From positions 1 to 64,000 of the forward strand of contig CAIZFE010000034.1 of NCBI GenBank assembly GCA_903932145.1: a stretch of DNA of 64,000 nt, read 5' to 3'. How positions within the stretch are numbered: position 1 is the first letter of the stretch; each line of letters opens with the position of its first letter. Shown piece by piece: positions 4,007 to 59,050 of the stretch. Below the pieces are notes generated by a model, which worked only from the letters and a program-made list of their open reading frames with translations, was not told where the DNA came from and made no database searches. The position numbers and the translations under genes are program-made. This DNA comes from an uncultured Rhodopila sp. (lineage in GTDB: Bacteria; Pseudomonadota; Alphaproteobacteria; Acetobacterales; Acetobacteraceae).

Positions 4007-4068
4007 GGCGCGGTTCCCCCATTCTTATGCGGGGTATTGAACCGGAACCGCGCCAGCTTGACCAGACG

Positions 4069-6747: not shown

Positions 6748-7626
6748 CTATTGATCCGCGAACAGACTGACGGCGACGCCGGTCGCCGGGGCTTTGGCGC
6801 GGAACAGGCCACCCAGAGTTGGGAATTCGGACAGGACGGATGCTGATTTACCCTCGCGCAGTGACGTTACATAAATAAACTCATCGGCAAAGCACGGCAT
6901 TGTCGGTCCGGGCACCGGAAACGCCCACTTGCGCAGCAGGGCCCCGCTTGGATTGAAACAATTGATGCATCCGGCCGATGGACCGGCAGACCAGTAATTG
7001 CCGTCCATGTCGGTCGCGGCCCCGTCCGGACGGCCGTCGTCGTTGGTCAGCGTCGCTAAAATTCGGTGCCCCGACCGGCCTCCCGTCGCGGTATCGAAAT
7101 CCCAGGCTTCGATGGTGCCGGCGGTCGAATCGGAGTGGTACATGACGCGCCCGTCGGGCGACCACGCCAGACCGTTGGAGACCGCGTACCCTTCGGCTTC
7201 CCTGGTGATCCTGCCGTCGGCCGTCACCCGGTACAGGGCGCCGATTTTCTGGCGAGGTGAGTTTTCGTCCATGCTGCCGACCCAGAAAGCGCCGTCCGGC
7301 CCGACCTTGCCGTCATTCAACCGGTTGGTCGGCGGCTCGTCGATCTTCGGGGTCAGATCGGTCAACACCCCCGACCGCGGATCGAACAGCACGACGTGGT
7401 GGCGCTGGGCAACCACGAGACGGCCGGAGCGGCAGAGGCCAAAACTGCCCACTACCTCGGGGAAATCCCAGGTTTCGCGAGCGCCGGTATCGACCGAAAG
7501 CGCATTGATCCGCTTGCCGTTGATATCGCAGAACAGCACGCGTCGGGCTGCCGCATCCCACACCGGCGATTCCGCGACACCGCAGCGCGAATCCCAGACC
7601 AATTCAAAATCGCTCATGTTTTTCAT
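6748..7626 (-). CDS. SMP-30/gluconolactonase/LRE family protein
   Basis: A 292-residue six-bladed propeller hydrolase of the SMP-30/gluconolactonase family, which opens sugar lactones with a divalent metal. Seen: an N-terminal glutamate in GVAESPVWD, the block NRLNDGKVGPDGAFWVGSM and SNGLAWSPDGR, all typical metal-site loops. An alternative start three codons in (MSDFELVW) is equally possible. It converges on otsA with 6 bases between the stops. Likely a sugar-lactone step in aldose oxidation; the exact lactone cannot be told. Confidence 0.92.
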   Translation of the reverse strand: MKNMSDFELVWDSRCGVAESPVWDAAARRVLFCDINGKRINALSVDTGARETWDFPEVVGSFGLCRSGRLVVAQRHHVVLFDPRSGVLTDLTPKIDEPPTNRLNDGKVGPDGAFWVGSMDENSPRQKIGALYRVTADGRITREAEGYAVSNGLAWSPDGRVMYHSDSTAGTIEAWDFDTATGGRSGHRILATLTNDDGRPDGAATDMDGNYWSAGPSAGCINCFNPSGALLRKWAFPVPGPTMPCFADEFIYVTSLREGKSASVLSEFPTLGGLFRAKAPATGVAVSLFADQ

Positions 7627-7745
7627 CCCCGTCCTGCCAGATCACATTCCATACCATCGCACACCTGTCGAACATCCAGGTCAAACTCGCCAGACCGGCG
7701 CGGGTTCGGCATGGTGGGTGCGAACGGGCTTGGTCAGGGACACAG

Positions 7746-8414
7746 ATGGATTCGACAGACGTGGTTTTCGGCGACCAGGCGGCGCTGGCGGGACACTTGC
7801 TGGCCATCCTCGGCCCACCCGGGACCGACGGTTCGCATGACCGGTCGCATTTATTGCGGGTTTTTCGGAATGCGGTCTCGATTGCCGACCAGGAACCGGG
7901 ATGCGACCGCGCCGTCCTGACGGCCGCCGTGATCCTGCACGATTGCGTGGCCGTGGAAAAAGATTCACCGCTTCGGTCTCAGGCCTCGCGGCTGGCTGCC
8001 GCCCGAGCCCGATCCGTTCTGGCGGAACTGGGTTGGGACAAGGCGGCGATCGAGCAAACCGCGCACGCCATCGAGGCGCATAGCTTTTCCGCCGGCATCG
8101 CCCCGGAAACGCGCGAGGCCCGCATTCTTCAGGATGCCGACCGGCTCGACGCGATCGGCGCGATCGGAATCGCGCGCTGCTTCTACGTGGCCGGCCGGAT
8201 GGGTTCCCGTTTGTACAATCCCGTGGATCCCTCGGCCTCCAACCGCGACCTTGACGACCGAAACTTTGCGTTGGACCATTTTGGCGCAAAACTGTTCAAA
8301 ATCGCCGGAAATTTTCAGACCGCATCCGGCCAGGCACTGGCGGACGCAAGAACGCGAACGATGCAGGACTTCGTGGGGGCGTTGTTAGGCGAAATAGCAG
8401 GAGACCGCCCATGA
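7746..8414 (+). CDS. HD domain-containing phosphohydrolase
   Basis: A 222-residue soluble HD-superfamily protein, similar in layout to YedJ-type metal-dependent phosphohydrolases. The metal-binding histidines and aspartates are visible in order: SHDRSHL, ILHDC, a downstream AIEAHSFS and ILQDADRLDAIGAIG. AGGGA lies 7 bases before the ATG. Its last four bases overlap the start of the Gfo/Idh gene (ATGA), so the two are translationally coupled. Substrate unknown. Confidence 0.9.
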   Translation: MDSTDVVFGDQAALAGHLLAILGPPGTDGSHDRSHLLRVFRNAVSIADQEPGCDRAVLTAAVILHDCVAVEKDSPLRSQASRLAAARARSVLAELGWDKAAIEQTAHAIEAHSFSAGIAPETREARILQDADRLDAIGAIGIARCFYVAGRMGSRLYNPVDPSASNRDLDDRNFALDHFGAKLFKIAGNFQTASGQALADARTRTMQDFVGALLGEIAGDRP

Positions 8415-9406
8415 TCCGCGCGGCCATCGTTGGACTCGGCCGCTGGGGCCAAAACCTCGTCACCAGCGTGCGCGACAGCGAGACCATGCGGTTCACCGCC
8501 GCGCACACAAGAACTCGGGAATCCGCGGCCGCGTTTTGTGCCACGTCCGGCTTACGGTGGGTCGAGTCGCTGGACACAATCCTGAACGATGCGACGATCG
8601 ACGCCGTGGTGTTCGCGACGCCTCACACGCAGCACACGCAACAGGTGATCCGCGCCGCGGCGGCCGGGAAGCATGTGTTCATGGAAAAGCCGTTCAGCCT
8701 TTCGGTCGCGGACGCCGAACGGGCGCGAGATGCCGCCGACCGGGCCGGCATCGTACTGGCGGTTGGATTCAACCGCCGATTTCATCCCTCCATGGGATAC
8801 TTACGCCAAGCAGTGATCGATGGCCGGCTAGGAACGCTGGTAACTATTAGCGCCGAACAGACCGCGCTGCACGGAATCACCATGAGCCCGGGCGCCTGGC
8901 GCGCCCGCCCCGACGAAGCCCCGGCCGGCGCGATGACGGCCATCGGCGTGCATCTGGTCGATGGCATGATCGATCTGTTCGGCCCGGTCAGCCAGGTTTA
9001 CGCGCAGGTCTCGCGCCGAGCGGCGCCGCTGGCGGACGATACCACCGACGTGATGCTGCGATTCGCTAATGGTGCGTCCGGACACATCTTCTGCTCCACC
9101 GCCGCCACCCCGCACTACCGCATGGCGGTCTATGGCACCGGCGGATTCGCCGAAGTACTGGGCCATTCCATGACGACGTTCCGGCTGGTGCCGGCCATCG
9201 ACGGTGCCGCCTTTGGCACGGGCCCGGCGGAGGTTATTGAATCAGCCGGTTTCAACATGTTGACCGCGGAACTGCACGCATTCGCCGCCAGTATCGAATG
9301 CGGGCGCCTGTTTCCAACGCCTCTGGAGCAAATCATCCACGGCGTTGCAGTGTTTGAGGCGGTGGCAAAATCTGCGTTGCAGAACGAACCCATCACGATC
9401 GGCTGA
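8411..9406 (+). CDS. Gfo/Idh/MocA family oxidoreductase
   Basis: A 331-residue NAD(P)-dependent dehydrogenase, typically acting on sugars, inositols or sugar derivatives. The N-terminal Rossmann motif is GLGRWGQN, and the family signature EKP occurs in FMEKPFSLS, followed by VGFNRRFHPS. The C-terminal half is the alpha/beta domain. It overlaps the HD gene by 4 bases. The neighbouring SMP-30 lactonase makes a small carbohydrate-oxidation locus plausible, but that is inference. Confidence 0.93.
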   Translation: MIRAAIVGLGRWGQNLVTSVRDSETMRFTAAHTRTRESAAAFCATSGLRWVESLDTILNDATIDAVVFATPHTQHTQQVIRAAAAGKHVFMEKPFSLSVADAERARDAADRAGIVLAVGFNRRFHPSMGYLRQAVIDGRLGTLVTISAEQTALHGITMSPGAWRARPDEAPAGAMTAIGVHLVDGMIDLFGPVSQVYAQVSRRAAPLADDTTDVMLRFANGASGHIFCSTAATPHYRMAVYGTGGFAEVLGHSMTTFRLVPAIDGAAFGTGPAEVIESAGFNMLTAELHAFAASIECGRLFPTPLEQIIHGVAVFEAVAKSALQNEPITIG

Positions 9407-9483
9407 GCGCGGCTTGCATTGCACCATCGCATCGGCAGCGCCGGCTGTGCTATGGCCGGATCACCGTTGATGTTTCCGAATGG

Positions 9484-10485
9484 ATGTGCATGTCTTTGCG
9501 AACCCTATGGCGCCTGCCGGCGCAGCTTCTGATAATGCTTGGGCTCGTCGTGGCCGGTTCGGCTCACGCGCAAGTGCAAACACCACAGGCCCAAGATGCC
9601 TCCCCGTTCGCACCGGGCGATTTGAAGCGGCCGGTCTTTGACACGCAAACGCCCAGCTATAATGTTGACGGAGCGCAGGCCAAGAGTGCCAGCACGCTCG
9701 TGGCGGAAGTCGATGGCCGAGCGGTGACTTTGGGCGATGTCGGGGATGCTATCGCGGAACTGCCCTCGACCGTTCGCGATCTACCGTTTTCCGACATCTT
9801 CCCCAGCATTCGGGCACAGTTGATCGGCCAGCAGGCGCTGGTGATCAGGGCACAGCGTCAGGGATTGGACGAGGATCCGGTCGTACGGCGCAAGATCAAG
9901 GCGACATCCGACCGCGTCCTGGCCAATGCCCTGTTGGAGCAGGAAATTTCCCGCTCCATCACCGAAGCCGCGCTGCTGGATCGCTACAATAAGGATTACG
10001 CCGGGAAACCCGGCCCCGAAGAGGTGCATGTCCGTGTCATCATGACTCCGACCGAACAGGAATCGGCCGATATCATCGCTGAACTGCGCGCCGGGGCGGA
10101 TTTCGCCACCCTGGCAAAGCGGTCGAGCAAAGACGCCACGGCATCCGCGGGCGGCGACGCCGGGTTCGTGACACTCGATGGACTGACGCCCGAGGTGGGC
10201 GCGGTTGTGTTCGCCATGCCGACAGGACAGTTCACCCCGTTTCCCGTACGCAGTGTCGGCTCCTGGTTCGTCTTGAAAGCCGAGGAACGGCGGCGTCAGC
10301 CGATTCGAGGCTTTAGTGTGGTGCGCGACAGCTTGCGGCAGAGCATGCTGCGCGAGGGGGCGGCGGACGTGCTTCGCGCCGCTATGAAGGACGTCGCGGT
10401 ACGGGAATATGATGTGAACGGCAAGGAAACCGAAGGTTCGTTGGCCTCGAACGGCGTCAGGCGCGCCCAGGATTCGTCTAAATAA
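9484..10485 (+). CDS. Parvulin-type peptidylprolyl isomerase, exported
   Basis: A 333-residue PpiC/SurA-type foldase. The N-terminal signal peptide (hydrophobic LLIMLGLVVAG then SAHAQ) points to export to the periplasm. A SurA-like N-terminal helical region covers roughly residues 60-165. The rotamase domain is at roughly 175-280 (VRVIMTPTEQES, then FATLAKRSSKDATASAGGD). The C-terminal tail after about 290 is low in conservation. A second ATG two codons in (9490) is an alternative start. Probable job: folding of outer-membrane or secreted proteins. Confidence 0.92.
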   Translation: MCMSLRTLWRLPAQLLIMLGLVVAGSAHAQVQTPQAQDASPFAPGDLKRPVFDTQTPSYNVDGAQAKSASTLVAEVDGRAVTLGDVGDAIAELPSTVRDLPFSDIFPSIRAQLIGQQALVIRAQRQGLDEDPVVRRKIKATSDRVLANALLEQEISRSITEAALLDRYNKDYAGKPGPEEVHVRVIMTPTEQESADIIAELRAGADFATLAKRSSKDATASAGGDAGFVTLDGLTPEVGAVVFAMPTGQFTPFPVRSVGSWFVLKAEERRRQPIRGFSVVRDSLRQSMLREGAADVLRAAMKDVAVREYDVNGKETEGSLASNGVRRAQDSSK

Positions 10486-13073: not shown

Positions 13074-13814
13074 TCAGGCGATTCGACGTTCCTCCACGAC
13101 GACCGTTTCGATCAGAGTATCCTGTTCGTACATCCAGCGTGTCAGTGCGCCGGCCACCATCGCGCCGACGATCGGCGCTACCCAGAACAGCCAGAGTTGT
13201 CCGATATATTCGGTGCCGGCGAACAAGGCCGGCCCCGTGCTGCGAGCGGGATTGACCGAGGTATTGGTGACCGGGATCGACACGAGGTGGATCAGCGTCA
13301 AAGCCAGACCAATCGGGATGCCGGCGAACCCCGCCGCCGCGCCTTTTGACGTCGTGCCGATGATAATGAACAGAAAGAAGAACGTCATGACCAGTTCGGT
13401 GATCAGGCAAGCGGTCAAGCCATATTTGCCGGGACTAAGCTCGCCATAGCCGTTGGCGGCGAACCCGGCCGGAACCCAACCCGGTTTACCCGATGCGATC
13501 AACCACAATATGCCGGCCGCGACGACGGCGCCGATAACCTGGGCGATGATGTAGGGCAGCACATGCTTGCTGGCGCACCGGTTGGCTGCCCATAGCCCCA
13601 GCGTTACCGCTGGATTGAAGTGTCCGCCGGAAATGTGACCCACGGCATAGGCCATGGTCAGCACGGTCAATCCAAAGGCGAACGCGACGCCCAGCAGGCC
13701 GATCCCAACGGCCGGAAAGGCGGCGGACAACACCGCCGCGCCGCACCCACCGAGCGTTAACCAGAAGGTACCGAAGAACTCCGCCGATATGCGGCGGGCC
13801 ATGTCGTCTTGCAT
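13074..13814 (-). CDS. aqpZ: Aquaporin Z-like water channel
   Basis: A 246-residue MIP-family channel with six membrane helices and two NPA boxes, at residues 67-69 (GHFNPAVT) and 188-190 (SVNPARS). The residues that form the aromatic/arginine filter in AqpZ are present at the matching spacings: Phe47, His176, Thr185 and Arg191. This indicates a water-selective channel rather than a glycerol facilitator. The C-terminal tail is short and charged. It stands alone, with gaps of 60 and 102 bases on its two sides. Confidence 0.94.
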
Positions 13815-13916
13815 GCATAGTCTCCCCGACCGTTTTATTGCCCTAACAACAGCGTCTCGGGGACAGTTGATATCGATTTAATCTGAACGTTTGGTCACGA
13901 GTGGTTGAAACTCGCA

Positions 13917-14828
13917 CTATACGTTCGCCGCCGCCAAAGCGGGACGAAGGAAGTCCGGATCGAAGATCTTCGTCGCCATGACCTGACAGCGGCGCATCAG
14001 GCGGATTTCGTCCGAGGCGTAGTCGGCGATGGCACGATGGATCGTGCCGACATGATCCCAGATCAAAAGATCGTTCTCATTCCAGTCATGCTTATACCGG
14101 AAGCGCATTTCAAGTTGATGCCGGAACAAGTAGTCCAGCATCTCGTCGCTTTCCGCTTGCGGTAGCTCGTTGATGCGGACAGCATAGCCTTCGTTGCAAT
14201 ACAGCACTTTCTTGCCGGTGATGGGATGCGTCAGGAACAGCGGATGCACCACCGGAGGGCGGCGTTTGCGCTGTTCATCCGTCATCGCCGGGCGCCCACT
14301 GGCTTTGTCGCGGCGCATGTGTTCCCAGAATTTTTCGAAATCGTGGGTCGCGGTCATGCCGTCCAGTCGGGTCTTTATCCCATTCGGCAATGCTTCATAC
14401 GCCGCCTGCGTGTTGGCGAATTCGGTGCCACCGAGCGGAACGCCGTGACGGCGGGGGATGCGGATGCCATAGAGGACGTTGACGAAGCCAATCGTCTCCC
14501 GATACGACATGTCGGTGTGCCAGTCCTGCCCGGCATCAGGGCTACCGATATAAGCGCCGTTTTCCCTGATGTTGGACAGAATACCAACCTCGGGGAACGC
14601 TCGGTTCGGATCGACCGCACTGATTGGATTGCCCTGTATCTCGCCGAACAGTTCGGAGAAACGTTTGACGTCCCCGACGTCCAGCTTTTGATCAGGAAAC
14701 CGCAGCACCCCGTGTTCGCCGAGCGCCAACAGGATGCGTCCGAAGTCCGGGTTGGACAAAGACTCTGCGAGATCGATGCCTCGAACGGTGGCGCCGAGTA
14801 TCTCGTCGGTCGGTTCTATGCTGAGCAT
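13917..14828 (-). CDS. TauD/TfdA family Fe(II)/2-oxoglutarate dioxygenase
   Basis: A 303-residue non-haem iron dioxygenase. The HxD iron ligands lie in DWHTDMSY. The distal histidine lies in TIHRAIADY, and the 2-oxoglutarate-binding arginine in the following EIRLMRRCQV. The family covers taurine, alkylsulfate, 2,4-D and related substrates; nothing here picks one. It is monocistronic, with about 265 non-coding bases upstream. Confidence 0.91.
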   Translation of the reverse strand: MLSIEPTDEILGATVRGIDLAESLSNPDFGRILLALGEHGVLRFPDQKLDVGDVKRFSELFGEIQGNPISAVDPNRAFPEVGILSNIRENGAYIGSPDAGQDWHTDMSYRETIGFVNVLYGIRIPRRHGVPLGGTEFANTQAAYEALPNGIKTRLDGMTATHDFEKFWEHMRRDKASGRPAMTDEQRKRRPPVVHPLFLTHPITGKKVLYCNEGYAVRINELPQAESDEMLDYLFRHQLEMRFRYKHDWNENDLLIWDHVGTIHRAIADYASDEIRLMRRCQVMATKIFDPDFLRPALAAANV

Positions 14829-28912: not shown

Positions 28913-30103
28913 TTAGCTGCCCGTCATGTCCTTCATAACACCGACATACCAGGGGCCGAAGAACCCGCCGAGGTTGCCGATCGAGTTGATCCAGGCGATC
29001 GAGGCCGCCGCTGCCGTTCCGGTCAGGAACATCGGCGGCATCGCCCAGAACGGCCCCTTGGAGCCATAGAAGCCCATCGCCGCGATGGACATACCGACCA
29101 GCGACCACCAGGTTCCCATCATGTACCCGGCGATGATGAGCCCGAGAGCCGACACCAGACAGGTTCCCAGCAGATTCCACCGCCGTTCCTGCATACGATC
29201 GGAGATACGTCCCCAGACCACCAGTGAAATGCCACCACAGACGTAAGGGATCATCGTCAACCAACCCGCCATCATGTTGCTGGTCGAGCCAATCGACTTG
29301 ATGATCTGCGGAATGAAAATCAGCATGCCCAGGCTGGCCACGACGATGCCAAAATAGTTTAACGCCAGCAGCAGCACCTTCGGATCGAACATCGCCTGCC
29401 ACAGGGTGAATGTCTTCACTGCCTCTTTCGCTTTGCGTTCGGCCAGCAACTTCGACGCCAGCCAGGTCTTTTCCTCCTGCGTGAGGAAGGTCGCCTGCTC
29501 CGGCCGGTCGGTCATCACGAACAGTGTCACGACACCGATCAGCACGGTCGGTATCGCTTCGGCGATATACATCCACTGCCAACCGCGCAGGCCCATGAGA
29601 CCGTCGAGAGTCAGGATCGCAGTGGAAATCGGCGCACCGGCCGCCACCGCGATAGGCAGGCCGATCAGAAACCCGGAAACAATCCGAGCGTGATGGTAGC
29701 TGGGAAACCAGTAGGTAAAGTACAGGATGATACCCGGGAAGAAACCGGCCTCGGCTGCACCCAGAAAAAAGCGAACGAGGGCGAAACTGTTCGAACCGAC
29801 CACCAACGCGGTCAATCCGGCACATATCCCCCAGGTGATCATGATGCGAGCGATCCATAGTCGAGCGCCGACTTTTTCCATCACGATGTTGCTGGGTACC
29901 TCGAAAATGAAGTAGCCCCAATAGAAAGTGCCGGCGGCGAAACCGAACGCGGTGGCCGACATATGCAGATTGCCTTGCATCGTCAGGCCGGCAAAACTGA
30001 CGTTGATACGATCGATATAGGCAAGAAAGTAGGTAAATATGGCAAAAGGCAATAGTCGCAAATAGATTTTGCGCATTGCGGATTTTTCGATGACGTCGTC
30101 CAC
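28913..30103 (-). CDS. MFS transporter, truncated by a nonsense codon
   Basis: An anion:cation symporter-type MFS protein closely similar to the intact gene at 34799-36136. The frame ends at a TAA at 28913-28915, where the paralogue has Tyr (MTGS-stop versus TTGSYAGGLYGL). Reading on in the same frame gives 39 more residues that still match the paralogue's last helix (AGGLYGLAMLCLGAAVICAF) and end at 28793. The gene therefore has a premature stop that removes the last membrane helix, leaving 396 of about 436 residues. I chose the GTG at 30103, with GGGAG just upstream, exactly as in the paralogue. Probably inactive unless the stop is read through. Confidence 0.85.
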   Translation of the reverse strand: MDDVIEKSAMRKIYLRLLPFAIFTYFLAYIDRINVSFAGLTMQGNLHMSATAFGFAAGTFYWGYFIFEVPSNIVMEKVGARLWIARIMITWGICAGLTALVVGSNSFALVRFFLGAAEAGFFPGIILYFTYWFPSYHHARIVSGFLIGLPIAVAAGAPISTAILTLDGLMGLRGWQWMYIAEAIPTVLIGVVTLFVMTDRPEQATFLTQEEKTWLASKLLAERKAKEAVKTFTLWQAMFDPKVLLLALNYFGIVVASLGMLIFIPQIIKSIGSTSNMMAGWLTMIPYVCGGISLVVWGRISDRMQERRWNLLGTCLVSALGLIIAGYMMGTWWSLVGMSIAAMGFYGSKGPFWAMPPMFLTGTAAAASIAWINSIGNLGGFFGPWYVGVMKDMTGS

Positions 30104-30198
30104 TTTTATCTCCCTGGCCGGTCCTGGCCAGCTTGGTGCCAGCGCTTGAGATCCCGATGAAGTTACCGTATGATACACAGGTATCAGCGAGCAACCGC

Positions 30199-30248
30199 TA
30201 ATACCAATCGCCGCTGACGTGTGTCACTGTCAACGGCGATTGATATCA
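30199..30248. repeat. Short palindromic element over a stop codon
   Basis: A perfect 8-bp stem AATCGCCG (30206-30213) and CGGCGATT (30234-30241) lies inside wider near-inverted ends (TAATACCAATCG and CGATTGATATCA). The ends resemble those of the 102-base element. It overlaps the stop codon of the permease/TAXI fusion gene and could act as its terminator. Confidence 0.6.
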
Positions 30249-32192
30249 GACCTTATCCGCTGACTCCGATGCCGGCGCCGGCGCTTCCGTGGCCGTCCGG
30301 TGGCTCAGGATGCGTTCCAGCACCCGGCGGCAATCGTTGGACCGATCCGGCTTGTCCAGTGATGCCCGGATCAGTCGAACCGTCGCCAGGTCGCTGCCCG
30401 CGAGCGGCCGCCCCTCGGCCAGCCCGGTTTCGATGTCTTTTAAGGTACGCAACCAGATCGTCGAGCGCAGCCAACCAAGGACTTCCGGTCCTTGCGGTAA
30501 CGCCAGCCAGTTATAAATTGGCATAAGAACGAAGAGCGGAACGATCAGGACCGTATAATAGCCGACCACGCTCGCCAGCCAAATCGGCAGATTTTGAAAT
30601 ATCCATGGTACGCCCGAATGATAGTAGGTCTTAGCCTGCTCGTTGGCTGGCAATCCGGTGGATCTCAAAGCGGGAAATTCAGACTCCTGTGAAACGATCG
30701 TCGCGGCATGATGGACCTCCTCCATCGCCTCCAGCAACAGAAAGGCAATCGCGGGATGCAGGTCTTTTTTCACCAGTACCTGATCCGTCGCCGCGAGCAC
30801 ATGCAGCGGGGTGGCGGGAATGCTGTCCTGAATGTCATACGTCGCCGCCGGCAGGACGACGTCGCGCAGGTAACCCAGCCGTTGCGAAATGGCCCGGGCC
30901 TGCGGGAAATCCAGCATCTGCAAGTCGTTATTCCGAGCCAGCAGAGTAATGAGCGGATTATCCGCGGACTGCATGACAAAACCGACATCGATCGTGCCCG
31001 CGGTCAACGCGGCAATTTCCTCGTTCAGTGGCATGAAATTAAACCGGCTGTTCTCCGCGGTCAGTCCCAGCGTCCGCAAAACGTCAAGCGCCGCGGATGC
31101 CGTCACGCTCGCGCGTGGCGGAAATCCAATGCGCAGACCACTCAGCCGCGACAGATCCGGAGACGGTCCCAGCGACTTGCGCGCGAAGGCGAACAACGGC
31201 TCATAGCCGGTGCTACCCAGTGTCGTGACATTCGGGATCAGCTTCGGACTGGTTTTATTGGCGACAAACCCGACATCGACACCGGCCGCCGGGTCGTTCA
31301 CGTCAAAAACGATAGAAGCGGTGTCAGCCCGCGATCTCAACTCGACATGAATACCTCGGGATTCAAGGAAATCCCGATACTGGGCAGCGTTGCGATACCA
31401 CGATCCATCGATCGCTCCGGCTTCGATCGTGACGTTCGTCGGAGGAAACGGCGCGGCAATGCCGGCCACCGCGACCACGGCGATCAACGCGGCTGTCGTC
31501 CAGCCATGCCGGCCGCGGCCAAACACAAATGACCCCATCTCTTGCGTAAAGCGTGCAGTCTTTTTTTCATCGTCACGACGTCCCTGCCGTGCGCTCAAAG
31601 ACCGGGTCAATTGCACGGTGGCCCACTGCGCGATCTGCATGACGGCGGCAAAGAACAGAATGGCAGCAACGATCAGCCAAATACGGCCACTGACCGACGT
31701 GAGCCGGTCAGTCTGCCGCAGGGTGATCGTAACGGCTTCCTCGACGCCAATCGCGGCGCCCACGGATGATGCCATGACCAGGACGCTGAAGGCCCGCAGC
31801 ATGTTCGGAATGAACAGCAACGCACCGCTCATGGAGCCGGCCTGCAGGTGCCGGAAAGTATCCAGTAAATTGTCGGACACGTAAGCGGCGGCATAAATCG
31901 ACAGCGCGAACACCAGGATCGCGCCCCCCGGGACCGGAATCACCAACCCGAACAGGACGATTTCGGATGGAAGCATGTTCAGCAAGAAAAACATGACAAC
32001 AAAGGTTGGCGACGCCCGCAGCAAACCGGTCAGTGCAGCCGCCGCATGACCGAGCAATCCGGCACCATGCCGCAATTTGGCAAGCGGCGCACCCATCGCG
32101 GTGCCCAGAGCCAGGGACGCCGCCGCGACCCAAATATTCGTCACGAAACCGGTCAGAAACGCAAAGATGAACGAGTCGGGGGCCTGCGTCAT
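30246..32192 (-). CDS. Chimeric membrane protein: ABC-type permease fused to a TAXI-family solute-binding domain
   Basis: A 648-residue protein of unusual build. Residues 1-205 have about five membrane segments laid out like an amino-acid ABC permease, but the ATPase-contact loop (about 105-135, SDNLLDTFRHLQAGS) lacks a clear EAA consensus. A further helix is at 231-250. Residues 253-530 resemble the TAXI family of TRAP solute-binding proteins (IEAGAIDGSWYRNA, VDVGFVANKTSP, AALTAGTIDVGFVMQS). The end (about 530-600) has the TAXI-type final helix (LASVVGYYTVLIVPLFVLMP) and a charged tail. Its ATG overlaps the upstream gene by 4 bases. No ABC ATPase or TRAP permease is nearby. Function unknown; transport or ligand sensing are both possible. 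Confidence 0.8.
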   Translation of the reverse strand: MTQAPDSFIFAFLTGFVTNIWVAAASLALGTAMGAPLAKLRHGAGLLGHAAAALTGLLRASPTFVVMFFLLNMLPSEIVLFGLVIPVPGGAILVFALSIYAAAYVSDNLLDTFRHLQAGSMSGALLFIPNMLRAFSVLVMASSVGAAIGVEEAVTITLRQTDRLTSVSGRIWLIVAAILFFAAVMQIAQWATVQLTRSLSARQGRRDDEKKTARFTQEMGSFVFGRGRHGWTTAALIAVVAVAGIAAPFPPTNVTIEAGAIDGSWYRNAAQYRDFLESRGIHVELRSRADTASIVFDVNDPAAGVDVGFVANKTSPKLIPNVTTLGSTGYEPLFAFARKSLGPSPDLSRLSGLRIGFPPRASVTASAALDVLRTLGLTAENSRFNFMPLNEEIAALTAGTIDVGFVMQSADNPLITLLARNNDLQMLDFPQARAISQRLGYLRDVVLPAATYDIQDSIPATPLHVLAATDQVLVKKDLHPAIAFLLLEAMEEVHHAATIVSQESEFPALRSTGLPANEQAKTYYHSGVPWIFQNLPIWLASVVGYYTVLIVPLFVLMPIYNWLALPQGPEVLGWLRSTIWLRTLKDIETGLAEGRPLAGSDLATVRLIRASLDKPDRSNDCRRVLERILSHRTATEAPAPASESADKV

Positions 32193-33850
32193 GCGATTGC
32201 TTCCCTGGCGCCAATGCGTCGGGCCACAATGCCGCTTACAAAAACCACGATCATGACGATGGACACATAAACAACCAGCAAAATCCCGTATGTCGTACGT
32301 CGCTCTGTTGTTACGGAAGCGATATCAGTCAACACATTCAGAAGTTCCGGGGTGCCAATAAAGCTGGCGCCGGCACTCGCGCGCGCCGCGTTCACCACGA
32401 AACTGGTTATTTGCGTGGCCGAACGGCGGATGATGGCGGACAACGGCGGTTGCGTCGAACCCGTCTCGATCACGAACGTCCGTGCCGCGTCGCTCATGGC
32501 CGAACCCGCGAATGCGCCGTTCGGCAGTCCGATGACAACGATGGAGGTACACAACGCCACAACCGGGCTGTACGACAACACTGCGGTGACGATGAAGTAA
32601 CCGAGGATAAAGAGCAGCACGATCGGGCTGGACTGCAGCAATCGGGTTGACCAGCGGACCGGAAACGAAACCCACCACCGCGGATCGCGCAGCCCGATCT
32701 GGATCAGGTGGGCGAACAGCAGGGTGGCACAGATCGCACCCGCAACCAGTATCAGGGTATTGACGATGCCTTGCTTGAACAGTGCCAGCGAGTCACGCCC
32801 CTTCAGCATCGGAAACGTGACGGTCACATCAAATCGCTCGTGCAGCCAGGTTTCCACCGCGACAACATACGGAGTCATTTCGGTCGGCTCTTCAATGTCT
32901 CGGATCGGCTCCAACATGCAGGCCGGCGCCGGATCGCCGCTACTGAGAATACACTGTGGATCCAACCAACGCGCTTGCTGCTGTATCAGGAAAGAGTCGG
33001 CCGTTTGATTGTGGTGCGCAATGTCGATCAGGACGCCGGAGCGATGAAAATCCGTTATCATGAGAGACAGCAGACGCCGCGTCCGGCTGGTGGAGCGGCG
33101 GCTGAGGCCGATCCCCCAGGGCAACGGTGCCAGGGTCAGTTTTTGCTCGAATCTGGCCGCGAATGCACTGTCGAGCATGCTTTCGGTGAAGAAAATATCA
33201 TCATGCGCCACCAATGAGCAGCGATTGAACAGCAACGCGTCCAAGAGATGGCGCGGCTGGTCGAAGATCATCAGGCGGGCGCCTTGCTCCGCCAGCATGG
33301 TGTTTGACGCGGACCCCTGTGGCACGCAGACGGTACGGCCGGCGAGCGCGTCGGCCTTCGGCACCGATAGCGCGCGCAAGCCGACCACGGCGGTGCTGGA
33401 AGCGAAATAATGCGGCCGGACAAAGTTGATCTGGCTGTCCCGGGTCATGGAATGGCCCATGGTTGCGATCACCGCATCCACGCTGTCATCCGCCAGCGAC
33501 GCGATGCGGTTGGCCGGTGTCACGACCACCGGTTCCATCCTCACATTCAGCCGTTGCGCGATTCGGGTCGCAACATCGATGTCAAAGCCGCGAAACAGAA
33601 CGCCTTCCTGGACCCCGAATCCGGGGTAATTATTGCGTACGCCAACGCGTATGACGCGATCGCACAAGATCCGATGCAGCGAGTCTGTCCGATCCGAGCA
33701 ACCCTCGCTCGCGGCTTCGGCCAGGATCGCGTCGATCGCCGCCCTGGTGGGATCGGCGGCAACGGCGTCAGCACGCGCCCGTCCGGACAGAACAGCCGCC
33801 ATCAGCATCAGGGTCAGCCCCAACCACCGGGGCATTTGCCAGTTTTTCAT
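32189..33850 (-). CDS. Chimeric protein: amino-acid-type solute-binding domain fused to ABC-type permease
   Basis: A 553-residue protein. Residues 1-27 form a signal or anchor sequence. Residues 66-275 match the SBP_bac_3 fold of polar amino-acid binding proteins (RVIRVGVRNNYPGFGV, FRGFDIDVATRIAQRL, then AGRTVCVPQGSASNTML). Residues 352-553 form an amino-acid ABC permease-like membrane domain (KQGIVNTLILVAGA, PIVLLFILGYFIVTAVL, ASFIGTPELLNVL). The domain order is opposite to that of the next gene. Its start codon immediately follows the stop of the methyltransferase (TGAATG), and its end overlaps the next gene by 4 bases, so all three are coupled. Ligand unknown. Confidence 0.82.
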   Translation of the reverse strand: MKNWQMPRWLGLTLMLMAAVLSGRARADAVAADPTRAAIDAILAEAASEGCSDRTDSLHRILCDRVIRVGVRNNYPGFGVQEGVLFRGFDIDVATRIAQRLNVRMEPVVVTPANRIASLADDSVDAVIATMGHSMTRDSQINFVRPHYFASSTAVVGLRALSVPKADALAGRTVCVPQGSASNTMLAEQGARLMIFDQPRHLLDALLFNRCSLVAHDDIFFTESMLDSAFAARFEQKLTLAPLPWGIGLSRRSTSRTRRLLSLMITDFHRSGVLIDIAHHNQTADSFLIQQQARWLDPQCILSSGDPAPACMLEPIRDIEEPTEMTPYVVAVETWLHERFDVTVTFPMLKGRDSLALFKQGIVNTLILVAGAICATLLFAHLIQIGLRDPRWWVSFPVRWSTRLLQSSPIVLLFILGYFIVTAVLSYSPVVALCTSIVVIGLPNGAFAGSAMSDAARTFVIETGSTQPPLSAIIRRSATQITSFVVNAARASAGASFIGTPELLNVLTDIASVTTERRTTYGILLVVYVSIVMIVVFVSGIVARRIGAREAIA

Positions 33851-34696
33851 TCAGACAGTCCCGGTATGAGAGGATTTGCTACCGAATTGGAGACCCGCCG
33901 ATGCGGGGGATGACGTGGCCACCGGGTCGCCGGCGCGGCGAATTTCCAACACGTGGGAATCCACGAAGTGATAGCCGGCAATGCACCGAAGCGAACGCGG
34001 CCGTTCGGCCGCGATGACCGCGGGCGATAATGCGGCGACCCGGTCTCCGGGCTCGTAGACCGTCCAGGTGAGGACGACTTCGGCGACAAGGCCATGCCGG
34101 GTCAGCATTGCCTTTGAAACGTCCAGACCGGCCAGCGCGTGATGCGTGATCCAGGCGACGCCGCCGGGCGCCAGATGGCCGGCGAGGCCATCGAGAAATT
34201 CATCCAACAGGCGGCGTCCGCCGCCGCTCCAGCTTGGGTTACGCCCTGGCGACAACGGCACTTCGGCGGGATAATGCGGCAAATTTGCAACGACTGCATC
34301 GAAGCGCAGCGCCGGCACGTCGTTCCACAAATGGCTGTTCAGCAATGTGATCGGCACGCCCGGCGCTTCTGATGCCAGCAACGCCCCGGCCAGGCTCAAT
34401 GCATCCGGGTCAACGTCCACGCCCCATAAGTCGGTGGCGCCAGAATGCGCCAGTGCGGCCAGCAGAACACCGCTGCCGGTTCCAATGTCGATGGTTCGAC
34501 GGATCGACAGCGCGGGCGACCGTTGTTCGATCACCCGCAACAAGGCGGCGGTGTATTCGCTTGGGCGCATCCGAACAGAGAGCGCGGCATAGTCAGGCGC
34601 CGGTTGGGGCGCCTTTGAGCCGGATAGAAAAAAATGCCCGGCCGACCCGGGGTCCGACGACACCAGCGCACCCGGTTCGGTTAACGTTGCAGTCAT
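33851..34696 (-). CDS. Class I SAM-dependent methyltransferase (HemK/RsmC-like)
   Basis: A 281-residue methyltransferase. Motif I is IDIGTGSGVLLAAL, the acidic residue after strand 2 lies in VDVDPDAL, and motif IV is VVANLPHYP. The last resembles the NPPY of HemK/PrmC-type N-methyltransferases with the first Pro replaced by Leu and the second by His. Length and layout suit PrmC/RsmC-like enzymes. It is the first gene of a three-gene operon with two chimeric transporter proteins, an unusual pairing for a housekeeping methyltransferase. Target unknown. Confidence 0.85.
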   Translation of the reverse strand: MTATLTEPGALVSSDPGSAGHFFLSGSKAPQPAPDYAALSVRMRPSEYTAALLRVIEQRSPALSIRRTIDIGTGSGVLLAALAHSGATDLWGVDVDPDALSLAGALLASEAPGVPITLLNSHLWNDVPALRFDAVVANLPHYPAEVPLSPGRNPSWSGGGRRLLDEFLDGLAGHLAPGGVAWITHHALAGLDVSKAMLTRHGLVAEVVLTWTVYEPGDRVAALSPAVIAAERPRSLRCIAGYHFVDSHVLEIRRAGDPVATSSPASAGLQFGSKSSHTGTV

Positions 34697-34798: not shown

Positions 34799-36136
34799 TT
34801 AGGAAATAAGTGTGAGAGCCGGACGGATTGCCGCTTTCTTTTGACCGGACGTTGCAGCCGCGGCGGCGTTGGGAATACGCAACCCGAACGCCGCAACCGC
34901 AGCCGCGACGAACGCCAACAGCGCCAGCCCATACAGTCCCCCGGCGTAACTACCGGTCGTATCCTTGATAAACCCGACATACCAAGGCCCGAAGAAGCCG
35001 CCGAGATTGCCGATCGAACTGATCCAGGCAATCGCCGCCGCCGCCGTTGATCCGCTGAGGAACATCGACGGCGTCGCCCAAAACGGCCCCTTGGAGCCAT
35101 AGAACCCGCACGCGGCGATGGTCATGCCGAACAGCGCCCACCAAGTCCCCATCGTCATGCCGGCGATCACCAGTCCCACGGTCGAAACCACACACGCCCA
35201 GAACAGGTTCCAGCGCCGTTCCTTCATCCGATCCGATACCGCGCCCCAGGCGATCAGCGAGATCGTTCCGGCGATATAGGGGATCATCGTCAGCCAGCCC
35301 ACGGTCATGTTGCTGGTAACACCGATCGACTTGATGATCTGCGGAATGAAAATCAGCATCCCCAGGCTGGCGGTGATAATCCCGAAGTAGTTCAGCGACA
35401 GCAGCAACACGCGCGGGTCATAGAACGACTTCCAGACACTCAGGATCTCCACAGCATCCTTGGCCTTGCGTTCCGACGCCAACTGCCCGGCGAGCCAGCT
35501 CCGTTCCTCAACCGTCAGGAACTTCGCTTGATCGGGCTTATCCGTCAGCACGAACAGGACAACGATTCCGCACAGGATTGTCGGTATCGCCTCCAGAATA
35601 TACATGTACTGCCAACCATGCAGGCCGTACAGCCCGTCCAGTGACAGCATCGCGGTGGAGACCGGCGCCCCGATGGCGACCGCGACCGGCAGTCCGATCA
35701 GGAATCCGGACATGATCCGGGCATGATGGTAGTGCGGGAACCAGTAGGTGAAATACAGGATGATGCCCGGGAAGAAGCCGGCCTCGGCCAGGCCCAGCAG
35801 AAAGCGCACGGTCGCGAAACTGTTCACGCCGGTGGCAAACGCGGTGGCGCCGGCCATCAGACCCCAGGTGATCATGATGCGCGCGATCCACATGCGCGCA
35901 CCGACCTTTTCCATGATGATGTTGCTGGGGACCTCGAACAGGAAATACCCCCAGAAGAAGATGCCGGAGGCGAAACCGAACTGCGTGGCGTTCATATGCA
36001 GGTCACCACGCATGGTCAGCGCGGCGAACCCGACATTGATCCGGTCGATGTAGGCGAGAAGATAGGTGAAAACCAGAAATGGCAGCAGCCGCCAATAGAT
36101 TTTCCGCATAGCCGACCGCTCAACCGCTGAAGCCAC
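34799..36136 (-). CDS. MFS transporter (anion:cation symporter family)
   Basis: A 445-residue transporter with 12 predicted membrane helices, of the ACS type that imports organic anions such as tartrate or phthalate. It shows LAYIDRINVGFAAL in helix 1, RFLLGLAEAGFFPGIILYFTYW in helices 4-5 and a second-half loop WGAVSDRMKERRWN. The start is a GTG at 36136 with GGGAG just upstream. It is the intact paralogue of the truncated gene at 28913-30103, and its 5' region is duplicated at 28581-28794. It is divergent from an SDR gene. Confidence 0.92.
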   Translation of the reverse strand: MASAVERSAMRKIYWRLLPFLVFTYLLAYIDRINVGFAALTMRGDLHMNATQFGFASGIFFWGYFLFEVPSNIIMEKVGARMWIARIMITWGLMAGATAFATGVNSFATVRFLLGLAEAGFFPGIILYFTYWFPHYHHARIMSGFLIGLPVAVAIGAPVSTAMLSLDGLYGLHGWQYMYILEAIPTILCGIVVLFVLTDKPDQAKFLTVEERSWLAGQLASERKAKDAVEILSVWKSFYDPRVLLLSLNYFGIITASLGMLIFIPQIIKSIGVTSNMTVGWLTMIPYIAGTISLIAWGAVSDRMKERRWNLFWACVVSTVGLVIAGMTMGTWWALFGMTIAACGFYGSKGPFWATPSMFLSGSTAAAAIAWISSIGNLGGFFGPWYVGFIKDTTGSYAGGLYGLALLAFVAAAVAAFGLRIPNAAAAATSGQKKAAIRPALTLIS

Positions 36137-55581: not shown

Positions 55582-56334
55582 TCAATACGTCAATATCTTC
55601 GACAGAAACTGCCGCGCCCGAGGGCTTTGTGCGCCCTCGAAGAACACCGTCGTCGGCGAGTCCTCCACCACCTCGCCCTGGTCCATGAACACCACCCGAT
55701 GCGCCACTTTCCGCGCAAACCCCATCTCGTGCGTCACCACCATCATGGTCATGCCCGATCGCGCCAGTTCGACCATGACATCCAGCACCTCGGACACCAT
55801 CTCCGGGTCCAGCGCCGAAGTCGCCTCATCGAACAGCATCACCACCGGGTCCATCGCCAGTGCCCGAGCAATCGCGACACGCTGCTGCTGGCCGCCGGAC
55901 AATTGGCCGGGGTGTTTCCCGGCGAACGCCTTCAACCCCACACGATCCAGTAACGCCTCTGACCGGGATTCCGCTTCTTGACGGGAACGGCCCAGCACCT
56001 TGCACTGCGCCAGGCACAGATTATCCAACACCCGCATATGCGGGAACAGTTCGAAATGCTGGAACACCATGCCGACGCGGGCGCGCAGGCGCGGCAGGTT
56101 GACGCCCTTGCCGCCGACTTGCTCGCCATCGACGGTGATGCGGCCTTGCTGGATCGGCTCCAGCGCGTTCACGCATTTGATCAGCGTGCTTTTGCCCGAC
56201 CCCGATGGGCCGCACACCACCACGACCTCACCGCGCGCGACCGTTAAAGAAACATCCCGCAGCACCGGCATCCCCGACGTGTACGACTTGGTGACGTGTT
56301 CGATCCGGATCACGGGTTCGGCGGTGGAGGACAT
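55582..56334 (-). CDS. Polar amino-acid ABC transporter ATP-binding protein
   Basis: A 250-residue ATPase (GltL/GlnQ type). Walker A is CGPSGSGKST, the Q-loop VFQHFELFPHM, the signature LSGGQQQR, Walker B VVMLFDEATSALDP and the H-loop VVTHEMGFA. I chose the ATG at 56334 (MSSTAEP); the frame is open into the permease gene. Last gene of the operon binding protein, permease, permease, ATPase, with 13 bases to the permease stop. Confidence 0.94.
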   Translation of the reverse strand: MSSTAEPVIRIEHVTKSYTSGMPVLRDVSLTVARGEVVVVCGPSGSGKSTLIKCVNALEPIQQGRITVDGEQVGGKGVNLPRLRARVGMVFQHFELFPHMRVLDNLCLAQCKVLGRSRQEAESRSEALLDRVGLKAFAGKHPGQLSGGQQQRVAIARALAMDPVVMLFDEATSALDPEMVSEVLDVMVELARSGMTMMVVTHEMGFARKVAHRVVFMDQGEVVEDSPTTVFFEGAQSPRARQFLSKILTY

Positions 56335-56347
56335 CAAAAACCCCTGA

Positions 56348-57037
56348 TCAGCGCGGCACGGCGATGAGCGCCCGCAGGCGTTGCACGCCACGGGAGGCCG
56401 CGAAAGACACGATGAAATACACCAGCGCGGCGAACGAGTACATCTCCACCAGACGCCCGTCGCGCTGCGCGATCTTGCTGGCCGCACCCAGGAAATCGGT
56501 GATCGACAGCACGTACACCAGCGACGTGTCCTGGAACAGCACGATCGTTTGCGTCAGCAGCACCGGCAGCATGATGCGGAACACCTGCGGCAGAATCACG
56601 TAACGCATGCTCTGCAGTGGCGTCAGTCCGAGCGCCAGCCCCGCCGCGGCCTGACCGCGTGGGATGGACGCGATGCCGGCGCGCATGATTTCCGAGAAAT
56701 ACGCTGCCTCAAACACAATGAAGGTGATCAGGGCGGAGGCGAAACCACCGACATGGATCGGCCGGGAACTACCGGTCAACCATTGCCCGAGATACGGGAC
56801 CAGGAAGTAAAACCAGAATATCACCAGAACCAGCGGCAGCGCGCGTACCAGATTGACATAACCGGCCGCGACCGCTGACAGAACCCGGCCGCCGGACAGG
56901 CGGATGATCGCCAAACCGGTCCCCAGAATGACGCCGCCAATCGCCGCCAGGAATGTCAGCGTCAGCGTAAACCGCATGCCCTCGAAGAACAGGTATCCCA
57001 GGCTGCGGCCGATGATCTCGAAGTCGAAATTGCTCAT
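56348..57037 (-). CDS. Polar amino-acid ABC transporter permease (GltK-like)
   Basis: A 229-residue inner-membrane permease with about five helices. The ATPase-contact loop reads GQAAAGLALGLTPLQSMRYV followed by ILPQVFRIMLP, the typical amino-acid permease form, and RALPLVLVIFWFYF is the conserved early helix. Its start overlaps the preceding permease by 4 bases, so the two halves of the channel are made together. Confidence 0.94.
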   Translation of the reverse strand: MSNFDFEIIGRSLGYLFFEGMRFTLTLTFLAAIGGVILGTGLAIIRLSGGRVLSAVAAGYVNLVRALPLVLVIFWFYFLVPYLGQWLTGSSRPIHVGGFASALITFIVFEAAYFSEIMRAGIASIPRGQAAAGLALGLTPLQSMRYVILPQVFRIMLPVLLTQTIVLFQDTSLVYVLSITDFLGAASKIAQRDGRLVEMYSFAALVYFIVSFAASRGVQRLRALIAVPR

Positions 57038-57786
57038 GCCTTGCCGTAGCCCGGCACCCGGACCCTGGATTCCAGCCAGCGCGCCGCCAACGTCGCGATC
57101 AGGTTGATCGCCAGGTAGGCCAACGTCGCCGCCGTGAACGCCTCGAACACCTGGAACGAGAATTCCTGCACCGCACGTGCCCGCGCCGTCAGTTCGGCCA
57201 GCCCGATGGTCAGCGCGACCGAGGTGTTCTTGATGGTGTTCAGCAGTTCGGAGGTCAACGGCGGCAGGATGATGCGAAAGGCCATCGGCAACAGGACGTA
57301 GCGATACGTTTGCGCCGAGGTCAGTCCCAGCGCCGTCGCGGCGGCACGCTGACCGAGCGGCAGGGCTTCGATGCCGGAGGAGATTTGGACAGCCACGCGG
57401 GCGGACATGAAGAAGCCGATGCCGATCACGGCCGTGACGAACGAGGCATTGGGAAGCTGCTTCAGCCAGATCGCCCAGGGGGTCGGCAGCAGATCGGGAA
57501 AGACAAAATACCAGAGGAAAAGCTGCACCAGCAGCGGCATGTTCCGGAACAGCTCGATCCAGGCGCTGGCGAGCAGCGGTGCCGTGCGTCCGGGCAGGGT
57601 GCGGAGCACACCGACGGCGGAGCCGACGACAAGGGCGATGATCCAGGCCAGGGCAGCGGTCAGCAGGGTCGTTCCGAGGCCTTGGACCAGCATGTCCAGG
57701 TAAGTGCCGTTGCCCTCGGGCGACTGCTCCCAGAATATGCCCCAGTTCCAGTTATAGCCCACGGCGCGGCCCTGGTGACGGTGCAT
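57034..57786 (-). CDS. Polar amino-acid ABC transporter permease (GltJ-like)
   Basis: A 250-residue partner permease. It has ELFRNMPLLVQLFLWYF, then the contact loop GQRAAATALGLTSAQTYRYV with LLPMAFRIILPPL, and SELLNTIKNTSVALTIG. The N-terminal NWNWGIFWE stretch is typical of GltJ. The gap of 168 bases to the binding-protein gene holds a REP-like hairpin at 57875-57893, which may stabilise the more abundant binding-protein message. Confidence 0.94.
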   Translation of the reverse strand: MHRHQGRAVGYNWNWGIFWEQSPEGNGTYLDMLVQGLGTTLLTAALAWIIALVVGSAVGVLRTLPGRTAPLLASAWIELFRNMPLLVQLFLWYFVFPDLLPTPWAIWLKQLPNASFVTAVIGIGFFMSARVAVQISSGIEALPLGQRAAATALGLTSAQTYRYVLLPMAFRIILPPLTSELLNTIKNTSVALTIGLAELTARARAVQEFSFQVFEAFTAATLAYLAINLIATLAARWLESRVRVPGYGKA

Positions 57787-57874
57787 GACGGTCTGAGCCG
57801 CGGCGCGATCCGGTTACCGGCAGGCATTTCCTGGCCATCGTGGGCCGGACGTGCATCACCGCCATGGCAGAGGT

Positions 57875-57893
57875 GGCCCGGACAAGCCGGGCC
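57875..57893. repeat. REP-like hairpin
   Basis: GGCCCGG, 5 bases, CCGGGCC: a perfect 7-bp stem, followed by ATGACGG. It lies between the binding-protein and permease genes of the amino-acid importer, where REP-type hairpins often protect the upstream transcript. Confidence 0.6.
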
Positions 57894-57954
57894 ATGACGG
57901 ATGGGGGGCGGACACGTCGCGTCCGGAACGAGATGAGAGCATGCGTTTGGGGCG

Positions 57955-58860: not shown

Positions 58861-59050
58861 GGGCGACTCTCCTGGCGGGGTCCGTGATTCCGCTTCAGGA
58901 CGATACGTCACTTCAATCGCGAACGAAACAGGCTATCATACAGGAAAGAGTACGATACCGATCGGTCAACGCGCCGGTGACCAGAAGCCGCCCTGTCACC
59001 GAAGGCCCGAACAAGCCGAGCCTTGACGGTAACAAAATGGCCTCAGGCAC

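Follow-up and report, generated by a model that had tools for sequence, protein, structure and literature searches.

An operon of an uncultured Rhodopila that joins a methyltransferase to an amino-acid-importer-like permease pair without ATPase-docking segments: a candidate motor-less receptor

Introduction

Periplasmic binding proteins are joined to membrane partners in several described systems, and an operon in a 64,000-nucleotide stretch of DNA from an uncultured Rhodopila sp. of the Acetobacteraceae (contig CAIZFE010000034.1, positions 1 to 64,000; hereafter the window) shares traits with more than one of them. It encodes a methyltransferase (MT), a solute-binding protein (SBP) domain fused to a permease (SBP3-PM2), and a second permease fused to a TAXI-type binding domain (PM-TAXI). 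Like the polar-amino-acid importers of the ATP-binding cassette (ABC) type, known as PAAT (GlnPQ and the HisQM/ArtQN class), the operon carries an SBP_bac_3 domain fused to a permease, as in GlnP, and two coupled permease genes, both of which match the HEQRo permease family under its cut-off. The fused layout of GlnPQ is described in the excerpted part of PMC8025302. Unlike PAAT importers, the cassette is without an ATPase gene, both of its permeases have lost the EAA segment, and a methyltransferase and usually a cyclase belong to the operon.

TAXI-GltS of Bordetella pertussis offers a second comparison, a TAXI protein paired with a secondary carrier that is not of the TRAP type (PMC12344293, in the excerpt available). 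By that account, the likeness covers the TAXI domain, the non-TRAP membrane partner and the gene fusion of the two. The pair also weakens a premise of the original prediction for this locus, which had been made from the sequence alone, that TAXI proteins normally serve TRAP transporters. In contrast to TAXI-TRAP and TAXI-GltS systems, the partner here is a motor-less ABC-type permease rather than GltS or DctQM, and the TAXI domain lies between two predicted membrane helices.

Transporter folds have also been reused for sensing. UhpC and CbrA are transporter-derived receptors with MFS or SSS folds, and neither is an ABC importer minus its ATPase. GlnH-GlnX-PknG of Corynebacterium glutamicum is alike in principle, as a periplasmic amino-acid binding protein and a membrane protein control a cytoplasmic enzyme instead of transport (PMC9769921, excerpt). 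According to the same excerpt, GlnX differs in having four membrane segments, a helical receptor fold, no ABC permease and a kinase as output (PMC9769921). Every part of the present operon belongs to a known family; to our knowledge, a motor-less permease pair tied to a cyclase and a methyltransferase is undescribed. A search of the open-licence PMC literature found no account of the cassette, which does not establish its absence in print.

By the two features tested, a cassette ATPase and the EAA segment, this system is not an ABC importer, nor, with no DctQM among the six window proteins scanned, is it a TRAP transporter. The sequence evidence points, with moderate confidence, to a polar-amino-acid ABC importer that lost its motor and became a receptor feeding cyclase or partner-switching signalling. 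It suggests a nutrient importer turned into a sensor.

The operon and the loss of its ATPase-docking segments

Three minus-strand open reading frames (ORFs) form one tightly coupled operon, without gaps as originally proposed. MT and SBP3-PM2 meet at TGAATG, and SBP3-PM2 and PM-TAXI overlap by four bases (ATGA). The features are as follows.

33851..34696, minus strand: MT, S-adenosylmethionine (SAM)-dependent methyltransferase, 281 residues, HemK/PrmA-like
32189..33850, minus strand: SBP3-PM2, 553 residues, with an N-terminal hydrophobic helix (signal-peptide-like), an SBP_bac_3 amino-acid binding domain and a permease domain (PM2)
33011..33652, minus strand: SBP_bac_3 fold of SBP3-PM2, about residues 67-280
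32423..32479, minus strand: unconserved loop of PM2 where the EAA/coupling segment has been lost, about residues 458-476
30246..32192, minus strand: PM-TAXI, 648 residues, permease without EAA fused to a TAXI binding domain
31578..32192, minus strand: permease domain (PM) of PM-TAXI, residues 1-205, with a 20-residue EAA deletion at about residues 125/126
31455..31505, minus strand: predicted membrane anchor helix ahead of the TAXI domain, residues 230-246 (AlphaFold2 model)
30603..31436, minus strand: TAXI (NMT1_3) binding domain, residues 253-530 (domain match and model)
30507..30584, minus strand: predicted C-terminal transmembrane helix of PM-TAXI, residues 537-562 (model)
30249..30491, minus strand: predicted helical C-terminal tail of PM-TAXI, residues 568-648, cytoplasmic by its probable topology

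The EAA/coupling-helix stretch has been removed from PM by an exact 20-residue deletion in 82 of 82 aligned rows, leaving 12 residues at a site where the conventional amino-acid permeases of the same genome have 32 (5 of 5). PM2 is unconserved at the same site and holds 14-31 residues (median 23, 19 in the window) versus 32. The EAAxxxG pattern occurs in none of 81 PM2 sequences and fits merely three of the five control permeases, so segment length is the better measure. The window also encodes a complete amino-acid ABC importer of the conventional kind, with ATPase, two permeases and SBP (55582-58911, minus strand), whose permeases and ATPase served as controls. In a solved importer, each membrane subunit contacts its ATPase through the coupling helix (EAA motif) (PMC12136057, excerpt). 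Since the segment is gone from both permeases, no canonical ATPase would be able to drive the complex. Of the traits of a type I ABC importer of the PAAT kind, the operon thus has the amino-acid SBP and homologous permease domains (permease models under cut-offs) and lacks the EAA coupling segment in both permeases. An operon gene for the nucleotide-binding subunit is missing as well, with no ATPase inside the cassette in any of 79 loci. The rest of PM stays conserved, with 28 invariant columns in nine PM sequences; the sole acidic residue among them, E152, lies in a segment common to conventional permeases.

Loss of the segment and absence of an ATPase go together beyond the cassette. A class-wide search of 385 genomes gave 29 further PM-like loci, 19 EAA-bearing and 10 EAA-less, and an ABC ATPase match (E 1e-10) lies within 1.5 kb in 15 of the former versus none of the latter. 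In a tree of 70 PM rows with the EAA columns removed, built by a quick method with a midpoint root and containing eight long end branches, one change of EAA state suffices, on a branch with an SH-aLRT value of 97. The nearest EAA-bearing relatives (L184, L185 and L187; L and G numbers denote loci and genomes) share the SBP3-PM2 and PM layout and have the 32-residue segment in each permease. An ATPase gene follows directly behind PM in L185 and lies in the same locus in L184; L187 has weak ATPase matches alone in the fetched region (72 and 94 bits), about 2 kb off.

Conservation of the cassette

One genome per species, 84,980 species in all, was scanned with the PM alignment, and the best 80 of 113 relative-encoding stretches were kept, yielding the 79 loci. 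A simple rule on length and third-codon-position GC content (GC3), or a stop-to-stop reading, defined the ORFs of the fetched loci in place of a gene finder, and some genomes stand in more than one collection (L098 = G006, L127 = G025, L131 = G013, L145 = G031, L157 = G703, L129 = G685, L150 = G615). The core of MT, SBP3-PM2 and PM is present in 75 loci, and the other four (L106, L142, L159, L173) end at contig ends. The gene order, whose conservation among relatives the original prediction had named as a check, is kept in 74 of the 79, with MT last in L129, so the arrangement is not a product of chance. Seventy loci are labelled Alphaproteobacteria, five Betaproteobacteria and four carry no class label; 25 of the 79 belong to the Reyranellaceae. 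The cassette is rare all the same: five of 398 genomes of a phylum sample contain it at E 1e-18, a count that includes the window's own genome and the sister-type loci G935 and G1054.

TAXI is a less constant companion. Among 59 genomes, the window's own included, searched with PM-TAXI and SBP3-PM2, the same fused layout occurs in one genome of the same genus (G006/L098, 48% identity), while in G013, G015, G025, G031 and G032, also of the window's genus, MT and SBP3-PM2 are accompanied by a PM that is a short protein of its own, about 202-234 residues long. G016, G031 and G032 encode TAXI separately, as a protein with predicted membrane helices, and G032 has the order PBP_like_2, TAXI, MT, SBP3-PM2, PM. 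Both halves of PM-TAXI meet in one protein in two of 395 genomes of the order, own included, when up to three candidates per genome are scored. A third fusion suspected in G741 turned out to be two separate ORFs. A sister-type, EAA-less locus of another class, L212, reads TAXI, methyltransferase, SBP3-PM2, PM. TAXI is found in five of the 79 loci, none of them among the 61 cyclase-bearing ones, a mutual absence that may only reflect lineage.

Further genes accompany these loci. Cassette parts are duplicated in G013, where two SBP3-PM2 and two PM genes surround one MT (L054, 7661-13030, minus strand), and in G031, with two PM genes (L051, 8445-12242, plus strand). A secreted-looking PBP_like_2 protein, a third kind of binding protein in the gene set, stands ahead of TAXI in L050 (12405-13919, minus strand), L052 (5298-7208, minus strand) and L056 (4090-5658, plus strand); by Pfam on L050 and L052, its C-terminal part has no confident family. 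An EF-G-like GTPase paralogue of 674 residues precedes the PBP_like_2-type and TAXI genes in L050 (14229-16253, minus strand; Pfam) and L056 (1663-3687, plus strand). In G015, the MT cassette has as its divergent neighbour a TAXI (NMT1_3) protein that carries a SPOR domain at its C terminus (L053, 10680-12026, plus strand). At the window itself, two MFS genes on the same strand bracket the operon (28913-30178 and 34799-36136, both minus), and their 73% mutual identity over 396 residues gives the appearance of a cassette sitting inside a tandem duplication.

Cyclase, phosphatase and methyltransferase neighbours

Directly upstream of MT, on the same strand and within 400 nucleotides of the first cassette match, 61 of the 79 loci encode a protein with dCache and class III cyclase domains. 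The share is 61 of 73 when only loci with more than 150 nucleotides upstream are counted, six of the 18 others having less. Identity rests on PF00211 and dCache matches by Pfam on five of these proteins, and the count was made with a profile of our own. These loci span the Reyranellaceae, Paracoccaceae, Rhizobiaceae, Roseobacteraceae, Thalassobaculaceae, Rhodospirillaceae, Acetobacteraceae and Betaproteobacteria. The catalytic motifs, which we take to be metal-binding and transition-state motifs, are conserved in at least 90% of 58 sequences.

A second kind of signalling neighbour marks the sister group. SpoIIE phosphatases lie near the permeases in all four EAA-less sister genomes (L179; L180; L181; L182 with L183) and in the outgroup L184/L185, as called by Pfam in L180, L181, L183 and L185 (with HAMP) and by BLAST in L179 and L184; none was seen in the stretch of L187. 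STAS genes are found in L179 and L185 (Pfam) and in L183 and L184 (BLAST), and a HATPase_c_2 gene in L185. Methyltransferases of another family occur in L180, L184 and L185, so that a methyltransferase beside an SBP/permease pair recurs with two enzyme families. At L185 (5768-13416, minus strand) and at L184, SpoIIE/STAS genes and a methyltransferase accompany an EAA-bearing SBP3-PM2/PM importer that has an ATPase, and these loci are possibly a living intermediate.

Other genes were noted upstream of MT. L206, which has no cyclase match, carries a mechanosensitive channel with a cyclic-nucleotide (cNMP)-binding domain just upstream (2645-4123, plus strand) and, immediately after TAXI, an MHYT-HD signalling protein (8870-10345, plus strand). 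A frame of about 800 residues with an SBP3 domain upstream of MT in L102, L130 and L150 was set aside, for in the L102 and L150 sequences it appears to be an ordinary soluble SBP gene with an out-of-gene extension.

Domains, folds and ligand

The domain content read earlier from the sequence stands in each of the three proteins. MT matches Methyltransf_25 (E 8e-8) and PrmA (1e-7) in Pfam, and its best NCBIfam model is a putative HemK-like methyltransferase (E 2e-16, 60.3 bits, below the cut-off of 162). GxGSG and N-[LMP]-P-[HQ]-[YF] motifs are present in eight of eight aligned homologues. HemK is defined by an N-P-P-Y motif IV; with its variant motif and a family score under the cut-off, MT falls outside HemK/PrmC, and a SAM fold is supported.

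SBP3-PM2 matches SBP_bac_3 at E 5e-18. TIGR01726 (HEQRo_perm_3TM) recognises both permease parts, at E 4e-4 and 1.2e-5 and each time under its cut-off, and Pfam BPD_transp_1 matches neither. The model of SBP3-PM2 (pLDDT 91, pTM 0.82) has amino-acid binding proteins as its best structural matches, and 6h30, a GlnP binding-domain construct, is among the PDB matches of the SBP domain. Because binding-protein folds alone (plus dehydratases and glutamate sensors on that fold) appear among the 50 Foldseek matches listed, the permease kinship of PM2 is drawn from sequence comparison.

PM-TAXI begins with its weak permease match and carries in its second half NMT1_3 (E 1e-8) and TRAP_TAXI TIGR02122 (E 2e-10, under the curated cut-off). 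Its AlphaFold2 model, from an alignment of 45 rows, has a pLDDT of 83 and a pTM of 0.59, which leaves the relative placement of the two halves unsure, and it includes the predicted transmembrane helix at residues 537-562. A TAXI fold at residues 253-530, on which the original prediction had staked itself, is borne out by the five best Foldseek matches (1us4, 9ibo, 8u79, 8s4j and 4ddd; TM to target 0.73-0.78, identity 15-18%), all of them TAXI-type. TAXI stands in the titles of 8u79 and 8s4j, and 1us4 and 4ddd are presumably TAXI proteins too. The remaining match, 9ibo, is VcGluP, a named TAXI protein in the excerpt of PMC12344293. In fold the domain is like glutamate-binding TAXI proteins, but with identity at just 15-18% no ligand is claimed for it. 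By sequence, the 648-residue protein has no match in the PDB at E up to 1, and a plasmid collection yielded 19 records, 18 of them on the TAXI part and one on the permease part, with none reaching 80% coverage of the query. PM-TAXI thus has the TAXI (NMT1_3) binding fold of a TAXI-TRAP system; no fused DctQM-type membrane protein is found among the three operon proteins and three adjacent ORFs of the window, the six to which this search was confined. As first noted, the operon holds neither an ATPase nor a TRAP membrane gene, and its parts are mixed.

The SBP domain of SBP3-PM2 likely binds an amino acid. R137, D217, C175 and C211, all within the SBP fold, are identical in 59 of 59 aligned SBP3-PM2 sequences, and in an alignment with 4zv1, a solved ancestral Arg/Gln-binding protein, the counterparts of R137 and D217 are an Arg and an Asp, which presumably contact the ligand at its alpha-carboxylate and its alpha-amino group. 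Just outside the fold interval, C63, C300 and C311 are identical in 59 of 59 and C51 in 58 of 59, and three disulphides are possible in the protein.

A proposed receptor without a motor

These features can be joined in one mechanism. PM2 and PM would form the usual permease heterodimer, onto which an amino acid would close the SBP domain. As no canonical ATPase could use this closure movement for transport, the movement may instead signal to a partner in the cytoplasm or the membrane, which would be the cyclase in most relatives and a PP2C/STAS partner-switching pathway in the sister group. Fusion of TAXI to PM would, in the window lineage, add a second ligand input, with the TAXI C-terminal helix and the tail of about 80 residues as a second route across the membrane. 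The substrate of MT may be a protein within the complex or one that belongs to its output. A sensor now looks likelier than a transporter, and a ligand sensor possibly linked to a methylation step was rightly named at the outset as one option. The loss of EAA from both permeases and the cyclase at most other cassettes were invisible to that first reading, which was to this extent incomplete.

A bolder version would make this a new receptor class, in which the docking site was lost once, and the SBP-permease complex is an amino-acid receptor controlling an adenylate cyclase and, in the sister branch, a partner-switching pathway through its PP2C phosphatase. MT would tune it by methylation, as chemoreceptors adapt, and TAXI would be the second input in the window lineage. 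In this full form the proposal is tentative and on the whole improbable.

Several observations weigh against a signalling role. It is inferred from the gene neighbourhood, many of the loci are close kin so that the counts are not independent events, and loss of EAA is compatible with ATP-independent transport. No cyclase stands beside the window cassette, so the window locus has no linked output enzyme, and the cyclase is absent from 12 of the 73 loci with enough upstream sequence (L098, L102, L126, L127, L129, L130, L131, L145, L150, L157, L165 and L171), the window's closest relatives among them. These belong to the Acetobacteraceae, its genera or the Rhodospirillales, apart from L150, labelled Alphaproteobacteria (G615, of the window's family), and L171 of the Alcaligenaceae. 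Two PF00211 proteins of the window's genome, C41 and C76, were considered as lost partners and rejected, with about 28-31% identity to the cassette cyclases over the catalytic part. SpoIIE/STAS genes already accompany the EAA-bearing, ATPase-equipped L184 and L185, so the signalling link may predate the loss. ATPase-like genes, finally, do occur near a few cassettes, among them one about 3 kb away in a sister genome (G182, L180), and are taken up with the second alternative below.

Alternative readings

The best-surviving alternative, still unlikely, is an ATP-independent transporter, in which the permease pair is a facilitator or an ion-coupled binding-protein-dependent carrier that follows a logic like that of TRAP or TAXI-GltS, the cyclase being merely co-regulated. 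The conserved permease cores outside the EAA segment would suit such a carrier, and in the window lineage the second binding protein, TAXI, comes from a family that serves secondary transporters, for which a pairing with a non-TRAP carrier is published (PMC12344293, excerpt). On inspection, however, no ion-coupling site is apparent, because the only acidic invariant column of PM, E152, is shared with conventional permeases, and the recurrent methyltransferase with its cyclase or SpoIIE/STAS neighbours would be left unexplained.

Less probable again is a real ABC importer whose ATPase, encoded elsewhere or beside it, docks through an altered coupling segment. Shared ATPases exist, for example those of the MsiK type, and the window genome has conventional amino-acid importers with ATPases of their own, one of them the importer that served as control; the EAA-bearing L187, moreover, has just its weak matches nearby. 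In the 79 loci, searched with phmmer at E 1e-15 (stricter than the 1e-10 of the class-wide set), an ATPase-like match occurs anywhere in the stretch at hand in 14 and within 1.5 kb of the cassette in six (L102, L130, L131, L133, L145 and L150). The best case for a complex that still uses a motor is made by L131 and L145, both of the window's genus, with an importer-type ATPase 103 and 331 nucleotides from the cassette on the opposite strand. NCBIfam models for GlnQ, ProV and MlaF all score 167-175 bits on these ATPases against cut-offs of 327-441, so no family is assigned; the window's own GlnQ-type ATPase scores 292 bits. What speaks against this reading is that the docking segment is absent from every PM and not conserved in PM2, that no ATPase lies near the EAA-less class loci while most EAA-bearing ones have one, and that two of the six near matches are of the ABC-F type (L102, L133) and two more (L130, L150) carry members of the L102 gene cluster. 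In L054 and L051, further copies of these G013 and G031 loci, the divergent ATPase genes stand at 13142-13921 (plus strand), there followed by a small secreted-looking protein, and at 7347-8252 (minus strand), respectively; at L165, a taurine/nitrate-type ATPase gene lies 2.4 kb off and is followed by a permease-like gene.

The view first put forward, an undescribed transporter made of two reciprocal ABC/TRAP chimeras, has become very improbable. The PM-TAXI fusion is real and recurs in the same layout in G006/L098. SBP3-PM2, however, is a GlnP-like fusion within one system, that of amino-acid importers, and no cross-system chimera. Nor is TAXI a reciprocal half of the design, since the one-protein form is confined to the window's genome and one relative, and the other cassettes seen have PM without TAXI or TAXI as a separate, neighbouring gene. 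A decaying importer without function, to which the loss of the ATPase and its docking site might point, is refuted by the conservation and deserves next to no credence. Across many loci from several families the frames are open, the starts coupled and certain residues invariant, and the cassette has been joined repeatedly to the same partner genes.

Implications

ABC importers are defined by their ATPase, and a conserved motor-less derivative beside signalling genes would show a path from transporter to receptor, for which the EAA-bearing ABC importer of the same layout would serve as a living outgroup. The system would allow a direct test of whether closure of a binding protein on its permease can signal without ATP. 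If the reading as a motor-less receptor is true, genes of this family now annotated as amino-acid ABC permeases would not be transporters.

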